DNA of 64,000 bases from Chloroflexota bacterium (GTDB lineage Bacteria > Chloroflexota > Anaerolineae > Anaerolineales > Villigracilaceae). Of the stretch, positions 12,620 through 22,375 are shown in pieces (the first letter of the stretch is position 1; the number at the start of each line of letters is the position of its first letter). The notes beneath the pieces are model-generated. The model saw nothing but the letters and a program-made list of their open reading frames with translations. It searched no databases and was not told where the DNA came from. Both the position numbers and the translations under genes were made by a program. Where the stretch lies: positions 248,001-312,000 of the forward strand of contig JACPVF010000007.1 of NCBI GenBank assembly GCA_016191845.1. Direction: 5' to 3'.

Positions 12620-14449
12620 TCACTGACAACCTTTTTCCATTTGATTCACATCGCAATACAAACTTTCAACCTCTGTATTTTCATCCCCCTCCCACACAAA
12701 GATCAATTGGGTAAACCCACAGGTCGATACTATGTAGTTATAAGCATGAAGTGTATAAATGTAATTTTGAGGAGATTGCTCTTCAAATGAGATGCATGCA
12801 CTCTCACCAGACGGAGCGTCTGACGGCATGCATCCCCCTTCATGTATTTGAACTTTGTAAAATTCTTTTCCGCTTTCACTCGTCAATGTATTTGGACATA
12901 ATCCATTTCCACGATCAGATAATTCTTGAGGAGAATAAATAGTAACTAGATAAACGTCTGGGTGAGAGGCGACATAAGAAAAGCTAAAACTTCTATTTAC
13001 TATCTCCTGTGGGAGCGAAGGTGTAGCTAGTGATTTGGGGGTGAAAATAAACACAGCCTTAAGCTTTACAGGCAGATTTGTTACAGCTCCTTCCCAAGTC
13101 GGACCCGTATTTAAATGTGTCCCAAATTTAATCGTTAGATTGACGGTTTGACCCAACTCATGAGATTGAGGGTTCCATCTATTTTCTCCGAATAGAGCAT
13201 CACCGCTGGAGCATAAATAATTTAAATCATCACAAGAGAGGGCTGTTAGGGGGCCACCACCAACTTCTTGTATCTCCATCGTAAAACAATTCGCCCTATT
13301 CCCCAGATCCTTACCAAGTAAAAGATCTCGCACCTCAAACTGAAGATCAACCGTATAGTTATTGACAATCTTGACCGCACCACCATCTTTTAATTGCATC
13401 TTCATCTCTAGGTCTTGAAAAGTTTGAGGTCGCACAAGAAGGACCCAAGTATTAGTTGGAGGAAGAGAAATAATTCTATATAGGTGCGCAGGGCACAACG
13501 GCAAGGCTTTGATGTCGTCTGGAAAGTCTTCGCCGGAAGTCAATGATTTACTCCACGTCTTAAGATCATCAGAGATCGCCAATTTCTGACTAGCATCAGC
13601 ACTCCAGTATGAAAAGGTTACTGATGTGTCATAACCAGCAATAGATATCAAATCTTGATTATCAGCAGGTAAAAAAAGTCTCGTATCTGAAGGAAAAAAA
13701 TCCAACAGTCTATCAAAAAGTTGCCTGGCCACGATGCTTAAATCATCAAAAACTTTTATGTCCTCGCGAAAGCCAAATAGGTTTTCCCAATCATTATAAT
13801 TTTTGGTACAAAGCAATGCAATCAGAATAATCAGATTTGGATCCCTGTGATCTGATGTTTGTTTTTTTAGTTCTTCGTACACGGCATCATGCGAAGAATT
13901 AGGTGTAAAAGTGCCATCCGTAATAACGACAAGATAACGCCTCTCCGCTGGTTGTGCATACATATCATTCAGCGCACCCCTAATACCTTTTTGAAAGTCA
14001 GTATTATCATGAAACATTTGAGGTGAAGCAATGCGAATTGATGTACTAACAATAGTCGGAGGAACAACAGTCATATAATCGTTAGCAAAAGCCCCAACGC
14101 CTACAAACAATCTCTGGGAATAGGATGATTGAATCGAAGCGCGAAAGACCTTTTCGATCATAAATCTCACGAAATCCCATCTTTGTTCACCCAATGCTCC
14201 ACAACCTTTGTTCTCATGCACAGAATCAGACTCGTCAATTAAGAATTCGACCTGAGTAATTGGTAAGCTTAAAGCTTCCATAGGCATTAGTGAAACTATA
14301 ATTGGGTCTTGCTCTTTTTGGGAAATATTTGGAAAAGATGTAGGAGTTGGAGACGGTGGCAACGTACTACATGACACAACTAATAAAACAGACAATACAA
14401 TTTGTACCAATATGTTCTTTTGGCATAGATGATCCCTTCTTTTTTTCAC
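12620..14449 (-). CDS. von Willebrand A domain lipoprotein
   Basis: Predicted lipoprotein of 609 residues. A hydrophobic stretch ends in lipobox VVSC near residue 27, followed by a Pro/Thr-rich linker (LPPSPTPTSFP). From about residue 65 to 240 there is a vWA domain. VEFLIDESDS supplies the metal-binding DxSxS, TDGT follows YLVVI as the later metal-site loop, and many Ser/Thr positions agree with an adhesion-type fold. The C-terminal 350 residues look beta-rich and contain paired cysteines but no family I can name. The best start is GTG 14449, with GGGAG nine bases before. It lies 38 bases downstream of the 14488-15525 membrane gene, so it is probably in the same transcript. Role inferred: metal-dependent contact at the cell surface. 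Confidence 0.7.
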   Translation of the reverse strand: MKKRRDHLCQKNILVQIVLSVLLVVSCSTLPPSPTPTSFPNISQKEQDPIIVSLMPMEALSLPITQVEFLIDESDSVHENKGCGALGEQRWDFVRFMIEKVFRASIQSSYSQRLFVGVGAFANDYMTVVPPTIVSTSIRIASPQMFHDNTDFQKGIRGALNDMYAQPAERRYLVVITDGTFTPNSSHDAVYEELKKQTSDHRDPNLIILIALLCTKNYNDWENLFGFREDIKVFDDLSIVARQLFDRLLDFFPSDTRLFLPADNQDLISIAGYDTSVTFSYWSADASQKLAISDDLKTWSKSLTSGEDFPDDIKALPLCPAHLYRIISLPPTNTWVLLVRPQTFQDLEMKMQLKDGGAVKIVNNYTVDLQFEVRDLLLGKDLGNRANCFTMEIQEVGGGPLTALSCDDLNYLCSSGDALFGENRWNPQSHELGQTVNLTIKFGTHLNTGPTWEGAVTNLPVKLKAVFIFTPKSLATPSLPQEIVNRSFSFSYVASHPDVYLVTIYSPQELSDRGNGLCPNTLTSESGKEFYKVQIHEGGCMPSDAPSGESACISFEEQSPQNYIYTLHAYNYIVSTCGFTQLIFVWEGDENTEVESLYCDVNQMEKGCQ

Positions 14450-14487
14450 AACAATATATCTCCCTTTTCGATGAAGTTCTCACAATA

Positions 14488-15525
14488 TTAAGGTTTACCC
14501 TCAGGTTTATTAGCTTCTGTTCTACTACCCACAAAGATAGTTGCAATCAATCGGAATGGCAGCAATACTGCATGTATTGGGGTCGAGATAAACCACTGCA
14601 AAATATCGAACACAATATAGATCACCCTATAGACCAAGTCAAAGATAAATGGAACCAGGGTGCCCAATATCGTCACGCCATAGTCTAGCAGATACAAAAG
14701 TCCGATAAGGATCCAACCAATCAGCAGGAATAAAACCAAGACGCCACGCATCGCTTCGAAAAAAGTAATCGCAGCAGCAAGAGCACTATTTATAGGCACC
14801 AGGCCAAACAAAACCCAGTTGAGCAAGCCATCCAAAAATGGATTTGATTCCAATCTGCCCAACTCTATCAGTCTAAATAATGCCCAGGCGATTAGGGTAA
14901 GAAAAGAAAGTAACGTTACTAAAAGTGCTATCCCTAAAGCTAGTGCTTTAGTCTGCGCATCGCGTTCAGACCACGGTGTAAACTCGCTCCTATCGCTTCG
15001 CATTTCAAATACCAGGGCCAGGCCAATAATCAGAGCAAGCAGTGAGCCGCCAAAGACAGCAAAATCAAACCTTCCCAGCAAGTCTGGTAAAGTTCCAGCC
15101 CACAAATTCAAAACGACTAGAGTATTTGCCACCGCAATCGCATCTGCCAGTACAAAGAATGAAAAACAACCCAACAGTAGGAGAAAACCTAACGTTCTAA
15201 AAGGATGATCTTTGCTATAAATCAGGCTGGCTAATTTAGTAAACCAGTTAGAGACAACGACAATAACATCAGCAAAGGGCTTCCGCAAAGTATCGCGAAA
15301 TCCATTAGCGCTATCTTCAATCAAGCTCCTTGGATAGAATGGCACATTATTTGGTTCAGAGTCTTTTTTAAAGATGACAGGCTTGACGACCAACTTTCCA
15401 AGCCTTTCCAAGAGAGGTCGCCAACGCTCGACCCATGCTATACAAATAAAAAAACAAACAGCAAGAACCACCCAAAAGGCCTGGGCATTGAGAAGATTAT
15501 AGAAAAACTCTGCCATGTTATTCAT
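14488..15525 (-). CDS. polytopic membrane protein of the vWA cassette
   Basis: Protein of 345 residues with a hydrophobic segment near residues 14-32, a cytoplasmic or periplasmic stretch to about 108, then around six membrane segments. The last of these (FDLVYRVIYIVFDILQWFI region) is followed by a short tail. I recognise no family. Its ATG overlaps the TAA of the upstream lipoprotein gene (TAATG), and AGGAG lies eight bases before it, so the two are translationally coupled. This supports a shared complex with the lipoproteins at 15525-16580 and 12620-14449. Confidence 0.6.
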   Translation of the reverse strand: MNNMAEFFYNLLNAQAFWVVLAVCFFICIAWVERWRPLLERLGKLVVKPVIFKKDSEPNNVPFYPRSLIEDSANGFRDTLRKPFADVIVVVSNWFTKLASLIYSKDHPFRTLGFLLLLGCFSFFVLADAIAVANTLVVLNLWAGTLPDLLGRFDFAVFGGSLLALIIGLALVFEMRSDRSEFTPWSERDAQTKALALGIALLVTLLSFLTLIAWALFRLIELGRLESNPFLDGLLNWVLFGLVPINSALAAAITFFEAMRGVLVLFLLIGWILIGLLYLLDYGVTILGTLVPFIFDLVYRVIYIVFDILQWFISTPIHAVLLPFRLIATIFVGSRTEANKPEGKP

Positions 15526-16580
15526 TATTTATCTCCTATGAAATTGACAAGAAATTCTTCAAGATCATCGCCATTGTGATACTCTACTGTATTTGCGCCG
15601 AAGGCAAGGATCTCATCTGTCCATAAATTTTGGGTATTCACGCAACTCGGTTGAATAATATCTACACACTGAGGCATCACAGCAATAACATCCACGCCTT
15701 TTAGATTAATGGGAAGATCAGGAATTTTGTTTCCAGGGCCAGCATTACGCCAATCTACAAGGTCATCAATTATGATTAAAATACATCGGTCATAATTCTT
15801 ACATTGACTTTCAAAATCCACAGTTACATGTGAAAGACCTTCGTAAACATTATTTATAACAAAAGGTGTCTCTAAAACAGAAACAGTATTACCCCTTTCC
15901 TCTTTTGCCAGGCCTATCTGTGTTGAAATTTCGTTAGCCTCAGCCTGCTTGGTAACGCTCCATTGAGTAGCAGTTACTTTGTAACTATCTTCATAATTCA
16001 TTACTTCACAGTTATATTCAAATGCAAGTTGAGTTTCAGTTGCCTTCTGCGCATCAACCGCCGCCACATACTGATTTTTTGCTACTTGATTAGCAAGCAC
16101 GGCATCTGATTGGGTCGGGGTTGGAATTGGCGTCAGTGTCGAATACAAGAATGGGGTCTCAACAATTTTAGGAGCGTCTAATATCTTAGAGGTATATCTA
16201 TCTAATTTTGCTGCCTCATAACCACGATATCCTAATGAAAAGATAGAATATTGATCGCCAGGGCCAAGCACTTTAGGCAGAAAGGTTTCCGTAAAATCCA
16301 GAGCATTCGAAGCAATTTGTCCATTTAGCAATTCAAGATGATCGGTCGCTAAAAAAGGATCGTACAGCACAACAATGAAAGTGTGTGAAATACTCAGATC
16401 TTCCAATGAATTAAGATCAGTATTTGATAAACATATACGAGGTGTTGGAGATGGTGTTACTGGAGTTGCTGTAATACCTGTTACCGTTGCGCCTATGTTA
16501 CAGCCAGAAATGATAAGGCTCAAAATGATCACGCCCAGCATAGAAGAAAGAATTATTTTTGAAAAAAATTTATATTGCAT
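15525..16580 (-). CDS. lipoprotein, possible degenerate vWA-like fold
   Basis: Predicted lipoprotein of 351 residues. The signal peptide ends in lipobox ISGC, followed by a linker with repeated Thr-Pro (TATPVTPSPTP). The mature part starts with HTFIVVLYDPF and later has RCILIIIDDLVDW, alternating hydrophobic strands with acidic ends that recall a Rossmann or vWA-like sheet, but a full metal site is not visible. A central segment (about 165-215) is rich in Glu, Ala and Gln and may be helical. The frame opens with TTG 16583, but ATG 16580 lies eight bases from GGGAG and is preferred. It is the first gene of the four-gene AT-rich cassette. Confidence 0.6.
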   Translation of the reverse strand: MQYKFFSKIILSSMLGVIILSLIISGCNIGATVTGITATPVTPSPTPRICLSNTDLNSLEDLSISHTFIVVLYDPFLATDHLELLNGQIASNALDFTETFLPKVLGPGDQYSIFSLGYRGYEAAKLDRYTSKILDAPKIVETPFLYSTLTPIPTPTQSDAVLANQVAKNQYVAAVDAQKATETQLAFEYNCEVMNYEDSYKVTATQWSVTKQAEANEISTQIGLAKEERGNTVSVLETPFVINNVYEGLSHVTVDFESQCKNYDRCILIIIDDLVDWRNAGPGNKIPDLPINLKGVDVIAVMPQCVDIIQPSCVNTQNLWTDEILAFGANTVEYHNGDDLEEFLVNFIGDK

Positions 16581-16942
16581 CAATTTTTCTCCCTAATCAG
16601 AGAATATGGTCCTTGCATAAATATGCACTTTCAAAACAATTTCTCATACGACTTATCTTTTCTGTAGAAAAAGGTAAGTCACCTAACATTTGTCATATCG
16701 GTCAGGATGAGTATTGCATAATTACCCATCCTGACCACGAACAATTCCTACCCCCTTGGCGCCCCCATACCAAGACCCCGCATAATACCTAGTGAATAAA
16801 CTATGAATAGTTTATGTGAAACACATACATACAACAATAGACTGATGTTTGTTCTGTATAGACATTTGTACTTATGACTACAAAGGGTCTTGCGGTCATT
16901 TTCTTTTTTTGCTACCCTAGTAGTGATAAACAAAGGAGTGGC
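16581..16942. other. divergent intergenic region before the comA-like gene
   Basis: A 362-base AT-rich gap between a minus-strand lipoprotein gene and the plus-strand response regulator. It must hold divergent promoters, but I see no clear -35/-10 pair. The only strong structure is the inverted repeat at 16700-16736. The ribosome site AAAGGAG at 16933-16939 serves the ATG at 16943. No convincing small gene is present. Confidence 0.5.
16700..16736. repeat. inverted repeat upstream of the comA-like gene
   Basis: GGTCAGGATG (16700-16709) and CATCCTGACC (16727-16736) form a perfect 10-bp dyad separated by 17 bases. There is no T-run on either side, so an operator or an RNA structure is as likely as a terminator. 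Confidence 0.5.
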
Positions 16943-17662
16943 ATGACTATCCCAAAAATACGCGTGACAATTGTCGACGATCATCAAAGCATTGTGGATG
17001 GGTATCGTTTTCGCCTGCACAACTTTTCACAAGTCGAGGTTGTGGCTGCCGTCAGCTACGGGGACAATCTGGAACCAGCTTTAAAGTCTCATCCCACAGA
17101 TGTTTTGCTGTTGGATGTCAACGTCCCCACGTCTCCCGAAAACCCCAACCAATACCCCGTCTTGCACATGGTGCCCAGCCTGCTGCAGCAATATCCAGAC
17201 ATGGATATTCTTATGATCAGCATGCACAGCGAACGCAGCCTAGTCCGCGCCGTCATGGAGGCGGGAGCAAGCGGCTACATCCTCAAAGATGACAGCCAGG
17301 CCATTCAGGAATTGGGAAGCATCATTCTACTGGTAGCAAATGGCGGAATCTATTTAAGCGAGAAAGTGCGTCACAACTTGTTCAAATCCTCTACAGACAA
17401 AGAAGAAATCGCCCTGTCTACTCGTCAGAAGGAAGTCATCTCACTTTCGGCGGCCTACCCCAACAACACCACGCACGAACTGGCGGAGAAGATGCGGGTG
17501 GCCAACTCCACGGTGAGAAATCTGCTCTCGGGCGCCTACCTGAAACTGGGCGTCAACAACCGTGCGGCCGCCATTGCCAAGAGCCGTCAGATGGGAATCA
17601 TTCCAAGCGAGACAACCGACGTCACTCTGCCCATTCCCAAGAAGAAAGAAAAATCGAATTAA
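16943..17662 (+). CDS. LuxR/NarL response regulator, ComA-like
   Basis: Response regulator of 239 residues. The receiver domain has the acidic pair in VTIVDDHQS (residues 12-13) and phospho-acceptor Asp58 in LLLDVNVP. Ser95 (in MISMHS) and the lysine of YILKDDS complete the switch. A LuxR-type helix-turn-helix occupies about residues 160-215, with LSTRQKEV and STVRNLLSGAYLKLGV. The open frame begins at 16874, but ATG 16943 has AAAGGAG four bases away. Its stop codon overlaps the stop of the convergent isoprenyl-synthase gene by four bases. The neighbours (isoprenyl transferase, Trp-containing peptide, PDZ/HisKA_3 kinase) make it the likely ComA equivalent, phosphorylated by the 18901-21147 kinase. 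Target promoters are unknown. Confidence 0.85.
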   Translation: MTIPKIRVTIVDDHQSIVDGYRFRLHNFSQVEVVAAVSYGDNLEPALKSHPTDVLLLDVNVPTSPENPNQYPVLHMVPSLLQQYPDMDILMISMHSERSLVRAVMEAGASGYILKDDSQAIQELGSIILLVANGGIYLSEKVRHNLFKSSTDKEEIALSTRQKEVISLSAAYPNNTTHELAEKMRVANSTVRNLLSGAYLKLGVNNRAAAIAKSRQMGIIPSETTDVTLPIPKKKEKSN

Positions 17663-18585
17663 TCCTGACAGCTCGCCAGAAGCGTTTGAACGGGAGCAGT
17701 CACAGACTCCAACAGAGTCACCAATGGCTCACGATCAGCAAGGGGCAATCCTGCCAGAATATCCTGGGCCATCTGGTTGCGTGACAGGATGTGATCGACA
17801 CAATAGCTGACCGCTCCGCAACTGAGGAGGATTTCCTGAGCCTTCTGCAAAGCCCCGGGAACCTCGATTTGGCTCAACAACTCGAGGAAACGCGCCTGAT
17901 GTGGATGTCTGACCGTCACCGCAAACAGGATTGGCAAGGAGCGACGCCCTTGCAACCAATCTGGGTTAGCGGGTATTTCCATGGCATCATGCAAATCATC
18001 ATGCACCTGAACTGTCTCACCATACACACATCCCAGGCGCCCCGCCTCCCGAGCTACCTGCAAAGAAGCTCCGCCTGCTAGGGCTCCAAGATATAACGAT
18101 GCGCCAAAAAACGGGGAACTCTTAGCATGTGTCACCCGCCAATACTCCTCCTCATCCAATGGCAAATGGACATCCAGAAACTGTCCCCAAGCTGTGGAAA
18201 GAAACATTGCATTGAAACGGAAGGCCACTTCTCCACGTGCAATTGGCTCGTCCACTGCCCGTTCGAGTGCAGATAAAGCCGCAGACTGGAAAGCACAAGC
18301 CAGGTCCGAGATGATCGGCATACCCAGGCGGTGATGTGCGCCACGCGGGTCAGAATCCAACATATCGTCCACTAACAGAATGCTGATGTGTGCACAAGCC
18401 ACAGCCGTCATGGCAGGGACAGCCCGCTCCAGGCTTCCGCCCACTGCCTGACAGGCACGCAGTGGTAAATTCCAATGGACGGGCCGACGGGCGGCAGCAC
18501 GACGATACAGGTCTTGCATATCCTGCCAGACTGAAACGACCGGCAAAGACAGGAAGAAATCCAGGGATTGTTGATAAATATCCAT
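17659..18585 (-). CDS. isoprenyl diphosphate synthase fold protein, ComQ-like
   Basis: Protein of 308 residues with the all-helical trans-isoprenyl diphosphate synthase fold. Both Asp-rich motifs are intact: DDMLD at residues 73-77 and DDLHD at 196-200, suggesting Mg-dependent binding of an allylic diphosphate. Length agrees with ComQ (near 300). The frame opens at GTG 18627, inside a hairpin, but ATG 18585 has GGAG six bases upstream and is preferred. It lies 57 bases downstream of a 48-codon peptide gene on the same strand and next to a two-component pair. I infer that it prenylates a Trp of that peptide, as ComQ does. Against this, the motifs alone also fit an ordinary farnesyl or geranylgeranyl diphosphate synthase. 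Confidence 0.75.
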   Translation of the reverse strand: MDIYQQSLDFFLSLPVVSVWQDMQDLYRRAAARRPVHWNLPLRACQAVGGSLERAVPAMTAVACAHISILLVDDMLDSDPRGAHHRLGMPIISDLACAFQSAALSALERAVDEPIARGEVAFRFNAMFLSTAWGQFLDVHLPLDEEEYWRVTHAKSSPFFGASLYLGALAGGASLQVAREAGRLGCVYGETVQVHDDLHDAMEIPANPDWLQGRRSLPILFAVTVRHPHQARFLELLSQIEVPGALQKAQEILLSCGAVSYCVDHILSRNQMAQDILAGLPLADREPLVTLLESVTAPVQTLLASCQD

Positions 18586-18597
18586 GATTGTCTCCAT

Positions 18598-18629
18598 CTG
18601 TGTCGGACGGGAAAACCCGTCCGACACAG
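18598..18629. repeat. perfect hairpin between peptide gene and ComQ-like gene
   Basis: A perfect 14-bp GC-rich stem (18598-18611 with 18616-18629) closes a four-base loop. On the minus strand it begins 13 bases after the peptide stop and ends just before the ribosome site of the ComQ-like gene. No T-run follows, so it looks less like a full terminator than like an attenuator or RNA-stabilising structure, which could give more peptide than enzyme. Confidence 0.7.
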
Positions 18630-18642
18630 TGTTATTTGTGGA

Positions 18643-18789
18643 TCAGTCCTGGGACATGTCCCAGAGCATCCAGGTGGAGTCGCGCGTGGCATCCATGATC
18701 TGGGTGCGGCTGGCCCGGGACAGGGCCGTGAGCAGATTGGCGCTGTCGCTGGCAGAAATCTGTTCGTAAAAAGCTTGCATTGCTGACAT
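18643..18789 (-). CDS. 48-residue peptide, putative ComX-like pheromone precursor
   Basis: A small gene of 48 codons plus TGA, beginning MSAMQAFYEQ and ending RDSTWMLWDMSQD. AGGAG (796-800 of the 18,000s) lies six bases before ATG 18789, a textbook ribosome site, so I consider it real despite its size. Trp40 and Trp43 lie near the C-terminus. Bacillus ComX precursors are about 55 residues long, with the prenylated Trp within the last few residues. The N-terminal part is polar and helical (ISASDSANLLTALSRAS) and recalls short RiPP leader peptides. It is immediately upstream of the ComQ-like gene and divergent from the receptor-kinase gene. I infer a secreted, prenylated signal peptide. Alternatives are a prenylated RiPP with another role or an unrelated small protein. 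Confidence 0.7.
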   Translation of the reverse strand: MSAMQAFYEQISASDSANLLTALSRASRTQIMDATRDSTWMLWDMSQD

Positions 18790-18900
18790 GGAAATCTCCT
18801 TTTTGGGTTAGGTGGATACAACAATAGGACAGAAAGGGACTGTTTGTTTTACGCTATAATGAAACCACCTCCTTTCACAACTCATACATAGTGGTTTGCC
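18790..18900. promoter_or_regulatory. divergent promoter region of comX-like and comP-like genes
   Basis: A 111-base gap between two genes reading away from each other. For the plus strand, TATAAT at 18855-18860 is a good -10, without a clear -35, and would place the kinase mRNA start about 34 bases before its ATG. The kinase ribosome site is poor (only GTGG). For the minus strand, TTGTGA...TATAGC is a weak candidate. The plus strand at 18864-18873 reads CACCTCCTTT, identical to the 3' tail of 16S rRNA, an oddity noted in the findings. Confidence 0.55.
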
Positions 18901-21147
18901 ATGAAAGATATTTCTTTCAAAAATCATAGTTTTTTCGACTGGTTAGTCACAGGGCTGGTTTGGTTCTGCGTCCTGCTCAACACCTATGGTCTTCTCGTCC
19001 AGGCGCCCTATATTGGGTTCTATTTCAATCCGTCCAATGGCAAGGTAACCGACGTTTTCATGCCCCAATCTGGTGATCTTCGAGAAAATGACATCTTAAA
19101 ACGCATCGGTCCAGTTGCATGGGATGCATTCAGGAGCAACAAACTACAAAGTCTTTTTTACGGGGCACAAAAGGGCCAGATATATGAGATCGATGTTCTA
19201 CGGGAAGGTCAGCCAGTCACCGTGCAATGGAAATATCCTGGCTTCAATAGCGAGGAGTTTTCGGGGCGTTTTTTCAGTACTTGGTGGCTATCCTTTGTTT
19301 TCCTGCTATTTGGTTACTTTACCCAGCAGTTCATCCGCCCAAGGGATCTGAGTTGGGGATTATTACTGGCAGTCAATTACTTTTTAGCCATCTTTATCGC
19401 CGCCGGAAATCTTTCCTCGTCTCACATTTTGGGTAGCGCAATTCAGATGCGTGTTGCGGCCTGGTTGTTGGTCCCTGTCTTCCTGCAACTGCACTGGATT
19501 ATTCCAATCCCTTTGGCCCGCATTCCCAGATGGTCGACAGGCTTGCTCTATGCAGTTCCCATTGCTCTGGCAACGACGGAGGCTTTGCAGTTGCCACCCA
19601 ACATCCCGTATGGTCTGGGGCTGATCCTGGCTTTCGTTGGAAGCCTGGTTGTACTATTGTTACATGGTATTTTCCAACCCAAGTACCGTAGCGATGTTTA
19701 CCTAATAGGCTCGTCAATGGGATTGGCTTTTCTCCCTATTGCCATTACCATTATCATAACTTTGTTCGGAAATTTACCGGAAAGTGGCCCCCTTTCCTTC
19801 TTTGCGTTGCCAGTTATGCCTGCGGCCTATTTCTACGCAATTAACCGCCGCCGCATGGGGAACATGGAAATGCGTGCGAGTCGTGTAGTCTCTGCCCTGG
19901 CATATACGGCCCTGTTATCCGCCACGCTTCCGTTCGTTGTTTTGTTGGCTGCCAACTTGACGCCACAGGGATCGCAAGCTCCTTTTTTCGTCATGTTCAC
20001 GCTGGCCACAATCATTTTCACGATTTTGGTCTTTCCGTTTTTCCAAAGTTATCTGGAACAGCACTTGCTGGGTATCACACTTCCTCATAAAAAAATCCTA
20101 GAGACTTACTCGACCCAGATTACAGCCAGCGCCACGTTAAACGATCTGCTGTCTCTGCTGAAAAACGAAATCTTCAACAGTTTACAGGTACAGCAATATG
20201 CCTTTCTCACCAAAACAGACGAGGCAGACAATATCCTGCTGTCCAAAGGTGTGGAGCCAGACTCTCTCCAGGTGGACAACATTCTGGAATTGCTAGGCAC
20301 TGATCACCCCTATCGATTGAGCCCACCATCGAGGGAGGTTTCTCCCCTAAGTTGGGTACGCCTTATCATCCCTCTCGAGGTAGATGCCAACACTATCGGC
20401 ATCTGGCTTCTTGGCAAACGGGATCCGGATGATCTGTACCCACAGGCGGATCTGCCCATCATCCAGGCATTGGCTAACCAAACCGCCATCGTTCTTGACA
20501 ATCTACTTCAGGCCCAACGGCTTAAGTCCATGCACCAGGCCAACGTGGACCGTTACGAAACGGAGCGGCATAACTTGGGGCGGGAATTGCATGACGTGGT
20601 TCTCAACGATCTGGCTGCATTGTTAATGACCCTCGACGACAATGCCAAAACGCCATCCGTCCTCAAGCAATACGATAGCCTGGCCCAACATCTGCGCGAG
20701 ATCGTCAGCGAATTGCGTCCGCCTTTGTTGAGCTATGGCCTTAAACTCGGCTTGGAGGAGCTAGCCGACAACTTGATGGAACGCAATCAAGAGGTTTCTA
20801 TCCACATAAGGGTCGAAGGCCAAGACACGCGTTACGGCAGCAATATGGAAAGTCACATCTATCGTATGGCGCAGGAGGCATGCGAAAACGCCATGCGACA
20901 TGGGCATGCCAGCCGCATCGAGATTCTCGGCAACCTGCAACCTGACGATCTCGAGTTAATGGTGGTCGATAACGGAAACGGGTTTGATACCCATTCCATG
21001 CTTCATATGGACTATCTGCTGGAGCATAAGCACTTCGGGTTGGCGGGAATGGTGGAACGTGCCTTGTTAATTGGAGCCAAACTTAAGGTCAACTCGGCTC
21101 GTGGAACAGGCACTCAGGTCACCATTCAGTGGAAGCCTCAAAAATGA
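18901..21147 (+). CDS. polytopic PDZ-HisKA_3 sensor histidine kinase, ComP-like
   Basis: Membrane histidine kinase of 748 residues. One membrane segment lies near residues 14-34. A PDZ-like domain outside the membrane follows (about 40-115: GKVTDVFMPQSGDLRENDIL, then DVLREGQPVTVQW), and then about nine hydrophobic segments between 126 and 383. A GAF-like region spans about 405-535. The HisKA_3 box RELHDVVLNDLA puts the phosphorylated His at 564. The ATPase domain has EACENAMRHGHAS, VVDNGNGFD and HFGLAGMVERA. One membrane helix, a PDZ-like loop, a helix bundle and a HisKA_3 kinase make up the ComP layout. It is divergent from the peptide gene and near a LuxR-type regulator, so it is the probable receptor for the prenylated peptide. 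The ligand is inferred, not shown. Confidence 0.85.
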   Translation: MKDISFKNHSFFDWLVTGLVWFCVLLNTYGLLVQAPYIGFYFNPSNGKVTDVFMPQSGDLRENDILKRIGPVAWDAFRSNKLQSLFYGAQKGQIYEIDVLREGQPVTVQWKYPGFNSEEFSGRFFSTWWLSFVFLLFGYFTQQFIRPRDLSWGLLLAVNYFLAIFIAAGNLSSSHILGSAIQMRVAAWLLVPVFLQLHWIIPIPLARIPRWSTGLLYAVPIALATTEALQLPPNIPYGLGLILAFVGSLVVLLLHGIFQPKYRSDVYLIGSSMGLAFLPIAITIIITLFGNLPESGPLSFFALPVMPAAYFYAINRRRMGNMEMRASRVVSALAYTALLSATLPFVVLLAANLTPQGSQAPFFVMFTLATIIFTILVFPFFQSYLEQHLLGITLPHKKILETYSTQITASATLNDLLSLLKNEIFNSLQVQQYAFLTKTDEADNILLSKGVEPDSLQVDNILELLGTDHPYRLSPPSREVSPLSWVRLIIPLEVDANTIGIWLLGKRDPDDLYPQADLPIIQALANQTAIVLDNLLQAQRLKSMHQANVDRYETERHNLGRELHDVVLNDLAALLMTLDDNAKTPSVLKQYDSLAQHLREIVSELRPPLLSYGLKLGLEELADNLMERNQEVSIHIRVEGQDTRYGSNMESHIYRMAQEACENAMRHGHASRIEILGNLQPDDLELMVVDNGNGFDTHSMLHMDYLLEHKHFGLAGMVERALLIGAKLKVNSARGTGTQVTIQWKPQK

Positions 21148-21271: not shown

Positions 21272-22375
21272 ATGACTGAATTCGGGAAACGTCTTCGCAT
21301 CTGCCGTAAAAAGGGCGGCCTGACCCAGGAGAAATTGGGCGGGCTGATTGGCGAAGCCTTGGGAGACCACGGTTTCAGCGGAGCAGCGGTAAGCGATTGG
21401 GAGCGCGGCGCCAGTAAAATTCACGCCGACAACCGCATCGTGCTGGTCAGTTTATTGCGCGTGCTGTACCAACACGGCAGCATCCAAACGCTCGAAGAGG
21501 CCGACGAACTGCTGGAGGCAGGTAACTACCGCGCGCTAGACCCCGAAGAGCAGCAACGCATCTTCTCTTACCAGGCAGCATCCCACGGTCGAAACGGAGA
21601 AAAGGCTCCCATTCCCGTGATGTGGATTTGGCTGTTTAATGTCTCCATTGAAGATTGGCAAACCCTCGTTCGAAAAGCTCAACCTGGACCCGAACCTGCC
21701 TGGCCACGAATCCTGGTCGCCTTCCTGCGTCAGAGATTGGATCGGCTGCACGCGACTCACGTTTTGCGCGCTCTCCTTTGGCTTTGGATTGGTCTGGCAG
21801 CCTGGATTTTGCTTATCCCCTCCTGGCGCTGGCCGTTTGAGGATCGCGGATCAGCACAACTGGCGTTGGTCGCCTATGCAGTTGGGACACTAATCCTACC
21901 CGCCTGTATTGCCGCGCTGGTCAATACCCGCGATAATCCTTTCTGGCAGGAACATGGTCTGGCCAATTCCTGGGTAACGCGTCTGTATGTTCATCAAGGC
22001 GCTAGCATTGGCTTTCAGGTGGGATATTTTGGGGCCTTCGTTTTGGGGTTGTTTCGCTACAACTTAGGTCTACCTTTCTCCAATCTGGCCAATCTCTTGG
22101 TATTGGCTTTTCCCCTGCTGCTCAGTTATGCCAGTGCCCATCTGGTGCCGCACAATCTTTTTACGGCATATAAACGCCTGCGCTTATCCGACGGTGCCAT
22201 TTTCTTCGTTTTCCCACTGGCCGGACCTGGTTGGGGATATTTTTTATTCGAGTATTACCCGATCCTCCTGCGGCACAACCTGGGGCTGACTCTCTTTTTA
22301 GCCTCCGCGACTCTACTGGCAGCCGTCACAATTCTGCGCAAACGCAATTCGAAGGAACAGGACACCGTTTTTTAA
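21272..22375 (+). CDS. XRE-type helix-turn-helix membrane protein
   Basis: Protein of 367 residues. The first 75 or so form an XRE/Cro-like helix-turn-helix (FGKRLRICRKKGGLTQEKLGGLI...GAAVSDWERG). A linker of about 90 residues follows, and then six hydrophobic segments, for example WLWIGLAAWILLIPSW and LGLTLFLASATLLAAV. It is thus a membrane-tethered DNA-binding protein. No good ribosome site precedes ATG 21272. Instead, three phased repeats sit there. It follows the ComP-like kinase gene by 124 bases on the same strand and may be an output of that system or simply a neighbour. The membrane half resembles nothing I can name. Confidence 0.65.
   Translation: MTEFGKRLRICRKKGGLTQEKLGGLIGEALGDHGFSGAAVSDWERGASKIHADNRIVLVSLLRVLYQHGSIQTLEEADELLEAGNYRALDPEEQQRIFSYQAASHGRNGEKAPIPVMWIWLFNVSIEDWQTLVRKAQPGPEPAWPRILVAFLRQRLDRLHATHVLRALLWLWIGLAAWILLIPSWRWPFEDRGSAQLALVAYAVGTLILPACIAALVNTRDNPFWQEHGLANSWVTRLYVHQGASIGFQVGYFGAFVLGLFRYNLGLPFSNLANLLVLAFPLLLSYASAHLVPHNLFTAYKRLRLSDGAIFFVFPLAGPGWGYFLFEYYPILLRHNLGLTLFLASATLLAAVTILRKRNSKEQDTVF

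Follow-up and report, generated by a model that had tools for sequence, protein, structure and literature searches.

A four-gene locus in an Anaerolineales genome of the Chloroflexota probably encodes an isoprenyl-peptide cell-to-cell signaling system that works like ComQXPA, with prenylation, processing, export, binding, and the quorum response all inferred from sequence and comparison. The locus lies at positions 16943 to 21147 of the window, the whole 64,000-nucleotide (nt) stretch analyzed here, whose coordinates are used throughout; the genome is 4.6 Mb in size and 99% complete. The sensor of its receptor is homologous to ComP, and its enzyme stands apart from housekeeping isoprenyl synthases; thus, a ComQXPA-like system exists outside the Firmicutes, to which the 2014 census confined comQXPA, according to its abstract (PMC4008528). 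The window locus is not ComQXPA in the strict sense, because its peptide has no ComX-family match, its genes are not all on one strand, and its enzyme keeps a second Asp-rich motif.

An earlier note on this DNA, made from the letters alone, proposed a rearranged comQXPA-like locus here. All four genes are confirmed, and the regulator, enzyme, and kinase that it named match Pfam profiles. The regulator and enzyme genes are convergent; the peptide and enzyme genes are transcribed together, divergently from the kinase gene. The features are as follows.

16943 to 17662, plus strand: ComA-like response regulator of the NarL/FixJ type, 239 amino acids (aa); Response_reg, E = 4e-13; GerE, E = 5e-6.
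17659 to 18585, minus strand: ComQ-like enzyme with a prenyltransferase fold, 308 aa; polyprenyl_synt (PF00348), E = 5e-16; longer frames start at 18597 or 18627.
18643 to 18789, minus strand: ComX-like precursor, 48 aa, with a leader that starts MQAFY and a C terminus TWMLWDMSQD; AGGAGA ribosome-binding site before the ATG.
18646 to 18675, minus strand: proposed core region with W40 and W43, placed from sequence, with putative boundaries.
18901 to 21147, plus strand: receptor histidine kinase of the ComP type, 748 aa, which matches HisKA_3 (E = 2e-5), HATPase_c (E = 4e-10), and, weakly, GAF; sensor homologous to Firmicute ComP.
18901 to 20505, plus strand: sensor module of the kinase (residues 1 to 535), with a first transmembrane (TM) segment, a PDZ-like loop, further membrane helices, and a GAF-like domain; this is the part joined to differing outputs in relatives.

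The strongest evidence that the window kinase is related to ComP comes from its sensor. We built a profile of this part (approximately the first 540 to 575 residues, ending at the start of the HisKA_3 box) and searched it against 5,293 open reading frames (ORFs). Three complete Firmicute ComP proteins matched at E values of 4e-18, 1e-8, and 9e-8, and a broken ComP matched at 0.01; these were the only matches outside the family, the next having an E value of 1.2, and reversed ComP sequences gave none. The match to ComP of Anoxybacillus amylolyticus spans residues 4 to 570, and the other two cover mainly the loop and the membrane part. A plasmid search with the window kinase had led to the same Anoxybacillus amylolyticus protein, which belongs to an annotated comQXPA locus on plasmid NZ_CP015439.1; there, PF05952 recognizes the ComX peptide (E = 3e-20), and a PDZ family is matched by ComP. 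Judged by sequence, then, the window kinase is a true relative of ComP. A further plasmid, labeled Stenotrophomonas rhizophila (CP031730.1), also carries a comQXPA locus, and its ComX is almost the same as the one encoded on a Lysinibacillus plasmid; this record may be mislabeled or contaminated.

The architecture predicted for the kinase agrees with the PDZ-like loop and roughly ten membrane segments that had been described from the letters. The AlphaFold model (mean predicted local distance difference test [pLDDT] score of 78.8) starts with an N-terminal helix and a beta-rich loop at residues 40 to 111; some nine other helices of the membrane type come next, followed by a GAF-like domain and the kinase core. 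A strict-cutoff hydropathy scan gives only seven membrane segments; the figure of about ten therefore rests on the model. The window kinase itself has no PDZ family match at E ≤ 1, and PDZ_2 was matched in 5 of 23 receptors of the window's class (class A, below; best E = 0.0018). A Foldseek search with the receptor matched kinase parts, with no PDZ structure among the 50 matches listed.

The enzyme contains both of the Asp-rich motifs seen previously, VDDMLD and HDDLHD. Its AlphaFold model has a pLDDT of 93.8, and the best PDB matches are geranylgeranyl diphosphate (GGPP) synthases. This shared fold is what favors a first alternative, that a housekeeping farnesyl diphosphate (FPP) or GGPP synthase happens to sit beside a two-component system. 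We consider such a coincidence extremely unlikely. The enzyme tree unites the 12 housekeeping synthases in one clade (support 97/98) and places all 44 enzymes of classes A and B, together with L048, in another (100/98), so that the grouping with FPP or GGPP synthases by which the earlier note proposed to judge the link was not found. The window's genome also has a separate housekeeping synthase gene, which groups with the housekeeping genes of relatives, and the neighborhood recurs across the order and beyond. The motif GK..R, which we take to be part of the isopentenyl diphosphate-binding site, is present at its usual place in 12/12 housekeeping enzymes, in none of the 44 Chloroflexota enzymes, and in none of 5 Firmicute ComQ proteins (one Chloroflexota enzyme, L103, has a distal chance match). 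Conversely, an acidic residue two places past the first motif (DDxxDx[DE]) is found in 44/44 Chloroflexota enzymes and 5/5 ComQ proteins, compared to 0/12 housekeeping synthases. Orthologues begin near the ATG at 18585 (MDIYQQ, 308 aa), and a GTG-start version would cross the hairpin at 18598 to 18629; this ATG is therefore the likeliest start of the window enzyme.

More distant homologues of the enzyme occur in these genomes as well. Five of six such loci (L049, L111, L112, L113, and L115; not L114) adjoin ComP-like sensors, and some bear other precursor-like ORFs; L113 has two tandem, nearly identical 71-aa ORFs that end in HRGWM. These loci are possibly a PalQ-like branch, a placement judged by eye in the case of L113.

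The 48-residue peptide with two Trp residues near its C terminus (W40 and W43) that was read from the letters proved to be the window's member of a recurrent family: 46 of 48 loci, the window included (45 of the 47 further loci), have a precursor gene upstream of the enzyme gene and on its strand. At the two exceptions, L088 has 475 nt of upstream sequence and L100 has none. We built a peptide profile from 16 precursors; at E < 0.01, it matched a precursor upstream of the enzyme in 38/48 loci and nothing elsewhere among 5,274 ORFs. Among the 34 precursors outside the training set, 26 were found at this threshold, 3 were weak but correctly placed (E values of 0.09 to 2.7), and the remaining 5, which are close relatives of one another, were recognized by eye from leader and tail. 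The precursors have a leader in common and end in a variable tail whose most constant residues are the C-terminal tryptophans, W-x-x-W in 42/46 precursors, WxW in 2, and a single W in 2; all 46 have a Trp within the last 17 residues. In 14 of 15 close precursor pairs, which come from three groups and are not mutually independent, the synonymous proportion (pS) is well above the nonsynonymous one (pN); the 15th pair, L073/L079 (0.77 versus 0.76), is out of register and uninformative.

These patterns bear on a second alternative, in which the enzyme prenylates another substrate, be it a small molecule or tryptophan in its free form, while the short ORF encodes a peptide that is regulatory or acts as a signal without modification. 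The related enzyme Ord1 farnesylates free tryptophan (PMC13290415), and with both Asp-rich motifs intact the window enzyme could also make prenyl diphosphates. However, the precursor and enzyme genes remain same-strand neighbors at nearly every locus, the C-terminal Trp residues hold constant while the tail around them varies, and the enzyme lacks GK..R. We regard a substrate other than the peptide as very unlikely. The characterized enzymes of the ComQ/PalQ type all act on tryptophan, according to PMC13290415.

The locus recurs with its receptor. Strong enzyme orthologues (E ≤ 2.1e-35) are present in 17 of 101 relatives, the window's genome included, and the next matches start at 2e-16; in all 17 genomes, the receptor adjoins the enzyme gene (in G095, a contig break divides the enzyme gene, and the receptor is on one of the two contigs that share it). 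No relative was found to keep the enzyme without the receptor, the pattern that would have spoken against a link between them; the reverse, a receptor without the enzyme, is common. A scan of the genome contigs collection yielded 47 further loci, 44 of them titled Chloroflexota or a subgroup, 2 titled Acidobacteria, and 1 titled as a bacterium without a phylum. With the window, these make the 48 loci analyzed here; 10 of the 47 contigs were already in the set of 101 relatives, and L068 and L069 have identical enzymes and peptides. The receptor adjoins the enzyme in 45/48 loci, and at the other three (L090, L102, and L104) the contig stops within the enzyme gene or right at it; among the 47 further loci, it is present in 44/44 whose contig extends past that gene. 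A phylum-wide search at E ≤ 1e-40, in which at most five candidates were scored per genome, found the enzyme in 6 of 400 genomes, the window's own included; the system is therefore patchy across the phylum. The two loci labeled Acidobacteria (L085 and L088) are on contigs whose titles indicate short length and low coverage, and their enzymes are nested in the Chloroflexota clade B of the enzyme tree; the labels are probable binning errors, the alternative being transfer.

Two classes of loci can be distinguished. All 24 distinct class A loci have the window's order, with the regulator convergent to the enzyme and the receptor divergent from the peptide, so the arrangement described in the earlier note holds throughout this class. 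In class B (20 loci in the enzyme tree), peptide, enzyme, and receptor are all on one strand. At one locus, L081, sensor-type proteins flank the peptide-enzyme pair on both sides. The note's idea of a rearranged comQXPA thus captured the new order, while the system proved broader than a rearranged copy. Its wider claim, that the same kind of system exists in another phylum, is supported by the ComP-homologous sensor and by recurrence, though not as to strict membership in ComQXPA.

Several observations weigh against this interpretation. The background of the sensor-profile search consists of the ORFs of these loci, not a whole proteome, and the last ∼20 positions of the profile enter the HisKA_3 box, although two of the three ComP matches are independent of them. 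The second DDxxD is kept in 44/44 Chloroflexota enzymes, while 5/5 Firmicute ComQ proteins have the first motif only, leaving possible room for other chemistry. The enzyme tree is long-branched with few outgroups, and in it ComQ is more remote from the 44 than are two distant enzyme types (L019 and L021); the enzyme alone therefore does not establish shared ancestry with ComQ. The W-x-x-W motif is weak by itself: chance ORFs carry it at 3 of the 14 loci used as controls (all 3 are among the 12 true housekeeping loci), as do 12 of the window's 465 short ORFs, so that leader and position, rather than the Trp pair alone, bear the argument. None of 16 peptides matches the ComX family PF05952 (E values up to 10, with filters that drop most matches above 0.1) or, convincingly, any other Pfam or NCBIfam family, and a profile-profile comparison with five Firmicute ComX proteins shows no homology, leader included. 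The ComX Pfam model is uninformative as a genome search, as even the Bacillus subtilis control falls below the cutoff.

In the mechanism that we propose, the enzyme (17659 to 18585) would prenylate one or both C-terminal Trp residues of the 48-residue precursor, after which the leader would be removed and the modified tail would exit the cell; no exporter or protease is among the eight window proteins scanned, and for ComX, likewise, no export route is known (PMC4008528). The receptor (18901 to 21147), by its homology to ComP, may detect the tail through the PDZ-like loop and membrane helices and, given the conserved pairing of the two genes, would pass phosphate to the regulator (16943 to 17662). 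A hairpin between the peptide and enzyme genes would probably raise the ratio of precursor to enzyme.

Receptors also occur without a peptide or enzyme. The sensor was detected in 28 of the 101 relatives; G082, which has a divergent receptor, was below the threshold. Sixteen of these 28 genomes also have the enzyme, and G083 has the distant enzyme type only. Eleven relatives (92 to 100% complete) have the receptor with no enzyme match above the housekeeping level, and seven of them have uncut receptor loci. Two more receiver-only loci are found in genomes that also hold the full system. In 8 of these 13 receiver-only loci, the regulator adjoins the receptor with no recognizable peptide or enzyme in between; at four others (L120, L121, L124, and L128), a contig end truncates the locus, and a gap in the assembly could hide the enzyme gene; the receptor frame of L123 is broken, with no regulator found nearby. 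The regulator-receptor gaps of these loci, when checked for a missed peptide, contained none with the leader. A 35-aa ORF with W..W at L117 overlaps the end of the regulator gene and was taken as chance.

The 12 receiver-only loci that can be placed are scattered over the receptor tree and require at least 8 changes, 7 of which are forced by well-supported branches. A congener of the window's organism (G001, locus L117) is receiver-only: regulator and receptor stand beside dnaE as in the window, without the peptide, the enzyme, or the helix-turn-helix (HTH) gene found downstream of the window receptor. Identity between the two genomes is 89% for DnaE, 63% for the regulator, 51% for the kinase part, and 41.5% for the sensor. 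A sensor so much less conserved than DnaE would fit a signal-receptor pair, in which the receptor is expected to diverge fast. Several relatives thus appear to have kept only the receiver half. We infer that receiver-only loci are listeners; repeated gain of the peptide-enzyme pair is the alternative. LuxR solos and other receiver-only signaling genes follow a similar pattern, with the receptor kept, the signal synthase missing, and a scattered distribution over the tree. Unlike LuxR solos, the receiver-only loci here consist of a membrane kinase and a ComPA-type regulator.

The same loci help to weigh a third alternative, that the prenylated peptide is mainly antibacterial or membrane-acting and that the kinase and regulator merely autoregulate its production, as in some lantibiotic systems. 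Prenylated PalX stems from a cluster for a ribosomally synthesized and posttranslationally modified peptide (RiPP) with an adjoining kinase gene (PMC10853753), and the distant enzyme homologues in these genomes adjoin ComP-like sensors together with other precursor types. Yet the receptor and regulator repeatedly occur without peptide or enzyme, which suits sensing the signals of others better than autoregulating a lost product, and there is no exporter, immunity, or protease gene among the eight window proteins scanned (the flanks of relatives were not searched systematically). An antibacterial or membrane-acting role is, in our judgment, unlikely, and we favor signaling.

Across loci, the same sensor is joined to HisKA_3, HisKA, or HD-GYP outputs. 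We scanned 16 receptors from the 20 class B loci with a receptor: 13 have HisKA (1 with a receiver domain), 2 have an HD domain of the HD-GYP type, and 1 has HisKA_3 with its own regulator. There are four distinct HD-GYP cases: Pfam identifies L040/L077 and L043/L082, whereas L044 and L045 were recognized by eye from the motif HHEKWDG(S/T)GYP. HD-GYP domains are phosphodiesterases of cyclic di-GMP (c-di-GMP). These fusions raise a larger idea, which we offer tentatively and hold with somewhat more doubt than conviction: isoprenyl-peptide signaling may be a modular language of a second phylum, in which a ComP-type sensor drives HisKA_3-regulator, hybrid-kinase, and HD-GYP outputs, the signal carries two prenylatable Trp residues, and the peptide-enzyme pair is repeatedly lost, leaving listeners that answer the signals of their neighbors.

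Three further features belong to the locus or its edge.

18598 to 18629: perfect 14-bp stem-loop in the gap between the peptide and enzyme genes, seen in the sequence.
18790 to 18900: divergent intergenic region between the peptide and receptor genes, with TATAAT upstream of the receptor gene.
21272 to 22375, plus strand: protein with HTH and membrane helices; HTH_31, E = 1e-5, slightly below the Pfam cutoff.

A perfect stem of at least 10 bp lies between the peptide and enzyme genes in 26 of 45 distinct loci, and no more than 1 of 50 shuffles equaled it; from locus to locus, the stem sequence mostly varies. It is plausible that such a hairpin favors the precursor transcript over that of the enzyme. 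The hairpins of eight loci (L080, L081, L089, L091, L093, L101, L103, and L104), several of them class B, have a common GTGTGG...CCACAC core; this core may belong to a repeated element or be bound by a regulator. The HTH-membrane gene is a possible accessory gene of the signaling locus: it follows the receptor in 12/24 class A loci and is present in 0/13 receiver-only loci, some of which are cut short. Upstream of the regulator, at 12620 to 16583, are three minus-strand genes. One encodes a VWA-domain protein that starts like a lipoprotein, another a membrane protein that matches no Pfam family, and the third a lipoprotein-like protein with no significant Pfam match.

How close does this system come to its Firmicute counterpart? 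As described in PMC4008528, ComQ has a polyprenyl-synthetase fold and 286 to 309 aa in B. subtilis, ComX (PF05952) has 52 to 73 aa with the Trp 5 to 10 residues from the precursor C terminus, ComP combines a multi-TM sensor with PF07730 and PF02518, and ComA combines PF00072 with PF00196; the four adjacent genes are on one strand, apart from unusual loci with comX on the other strand. The window locus likewise unites four roles, with a 308-aa PF00348 enzyme that lacks GK..R and has DDxxDxD, a short precursor with C-terminal Trp residues (W40/W43 of 48), a PF07730/PF02518 kinase with a TM segment, a PDZ-like loop, many further TM helices, and a homologous sensor, and a NarL-type PF00072/PF00196 regulator; the receptors diverge fast in both. 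In contrast to ComQXPA, the peptide and enzyme genes form an inverted pair between regulator and receptor, the peptide is 48 aa long without a PF05952 match and usually carries two Trp residues (W-x-x-W), the second DDxxD is kept, class B outputs are swapped, and the phylum is different.

A second point of comparison is PalQ/PalX/PalP of Paenibacillus alvei (PMC10853753), known to us by description. PalQ is a Trp prenyltransferase with an isoprenoid-synthase fold whose precursor and histidine kinase genes adjoin; it retains the Asp residues of the second motif, as the window enzyme does, whereas ComQ is without that motif. The leader of PalX is of the NHLP kind and its Trp is C-terminal, unlike the window precursor with its short MQAFY leader, and window-type precursors have no NHLP-type Pfam match. 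Our literature search, whose coverage left out bioRxiv and most subscription journals, returned no description of a Chloroflexota peptide-enzyme pair. A ComP-ComA pair in Chloroflexi, not the peptide or enzyme, was noted from KEGG in PMC8895600, and PMC12352652, which contains both comQ and Chloroflexota, only cites a Bacillus comQ paper.

These findings would extend ComQXPA-like peptide quorum sensing to a phylum beyond the one in which the 2014 census recorded it, and they supply varied candidates for tryptophan prenyltransferases, each set beside its putative substrate. If our interpretation is correct, the mostly uncultured Anaerolineae would gain a concrete, synthesizable signal that could be tested in sludge and sediment communities, and one pheromone sensor could drive either transcription or c-di-GMP turnover. 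Related producers and receiver-only strains would then make up a natural set in which to study eavesdropping on lipopeptide signals.

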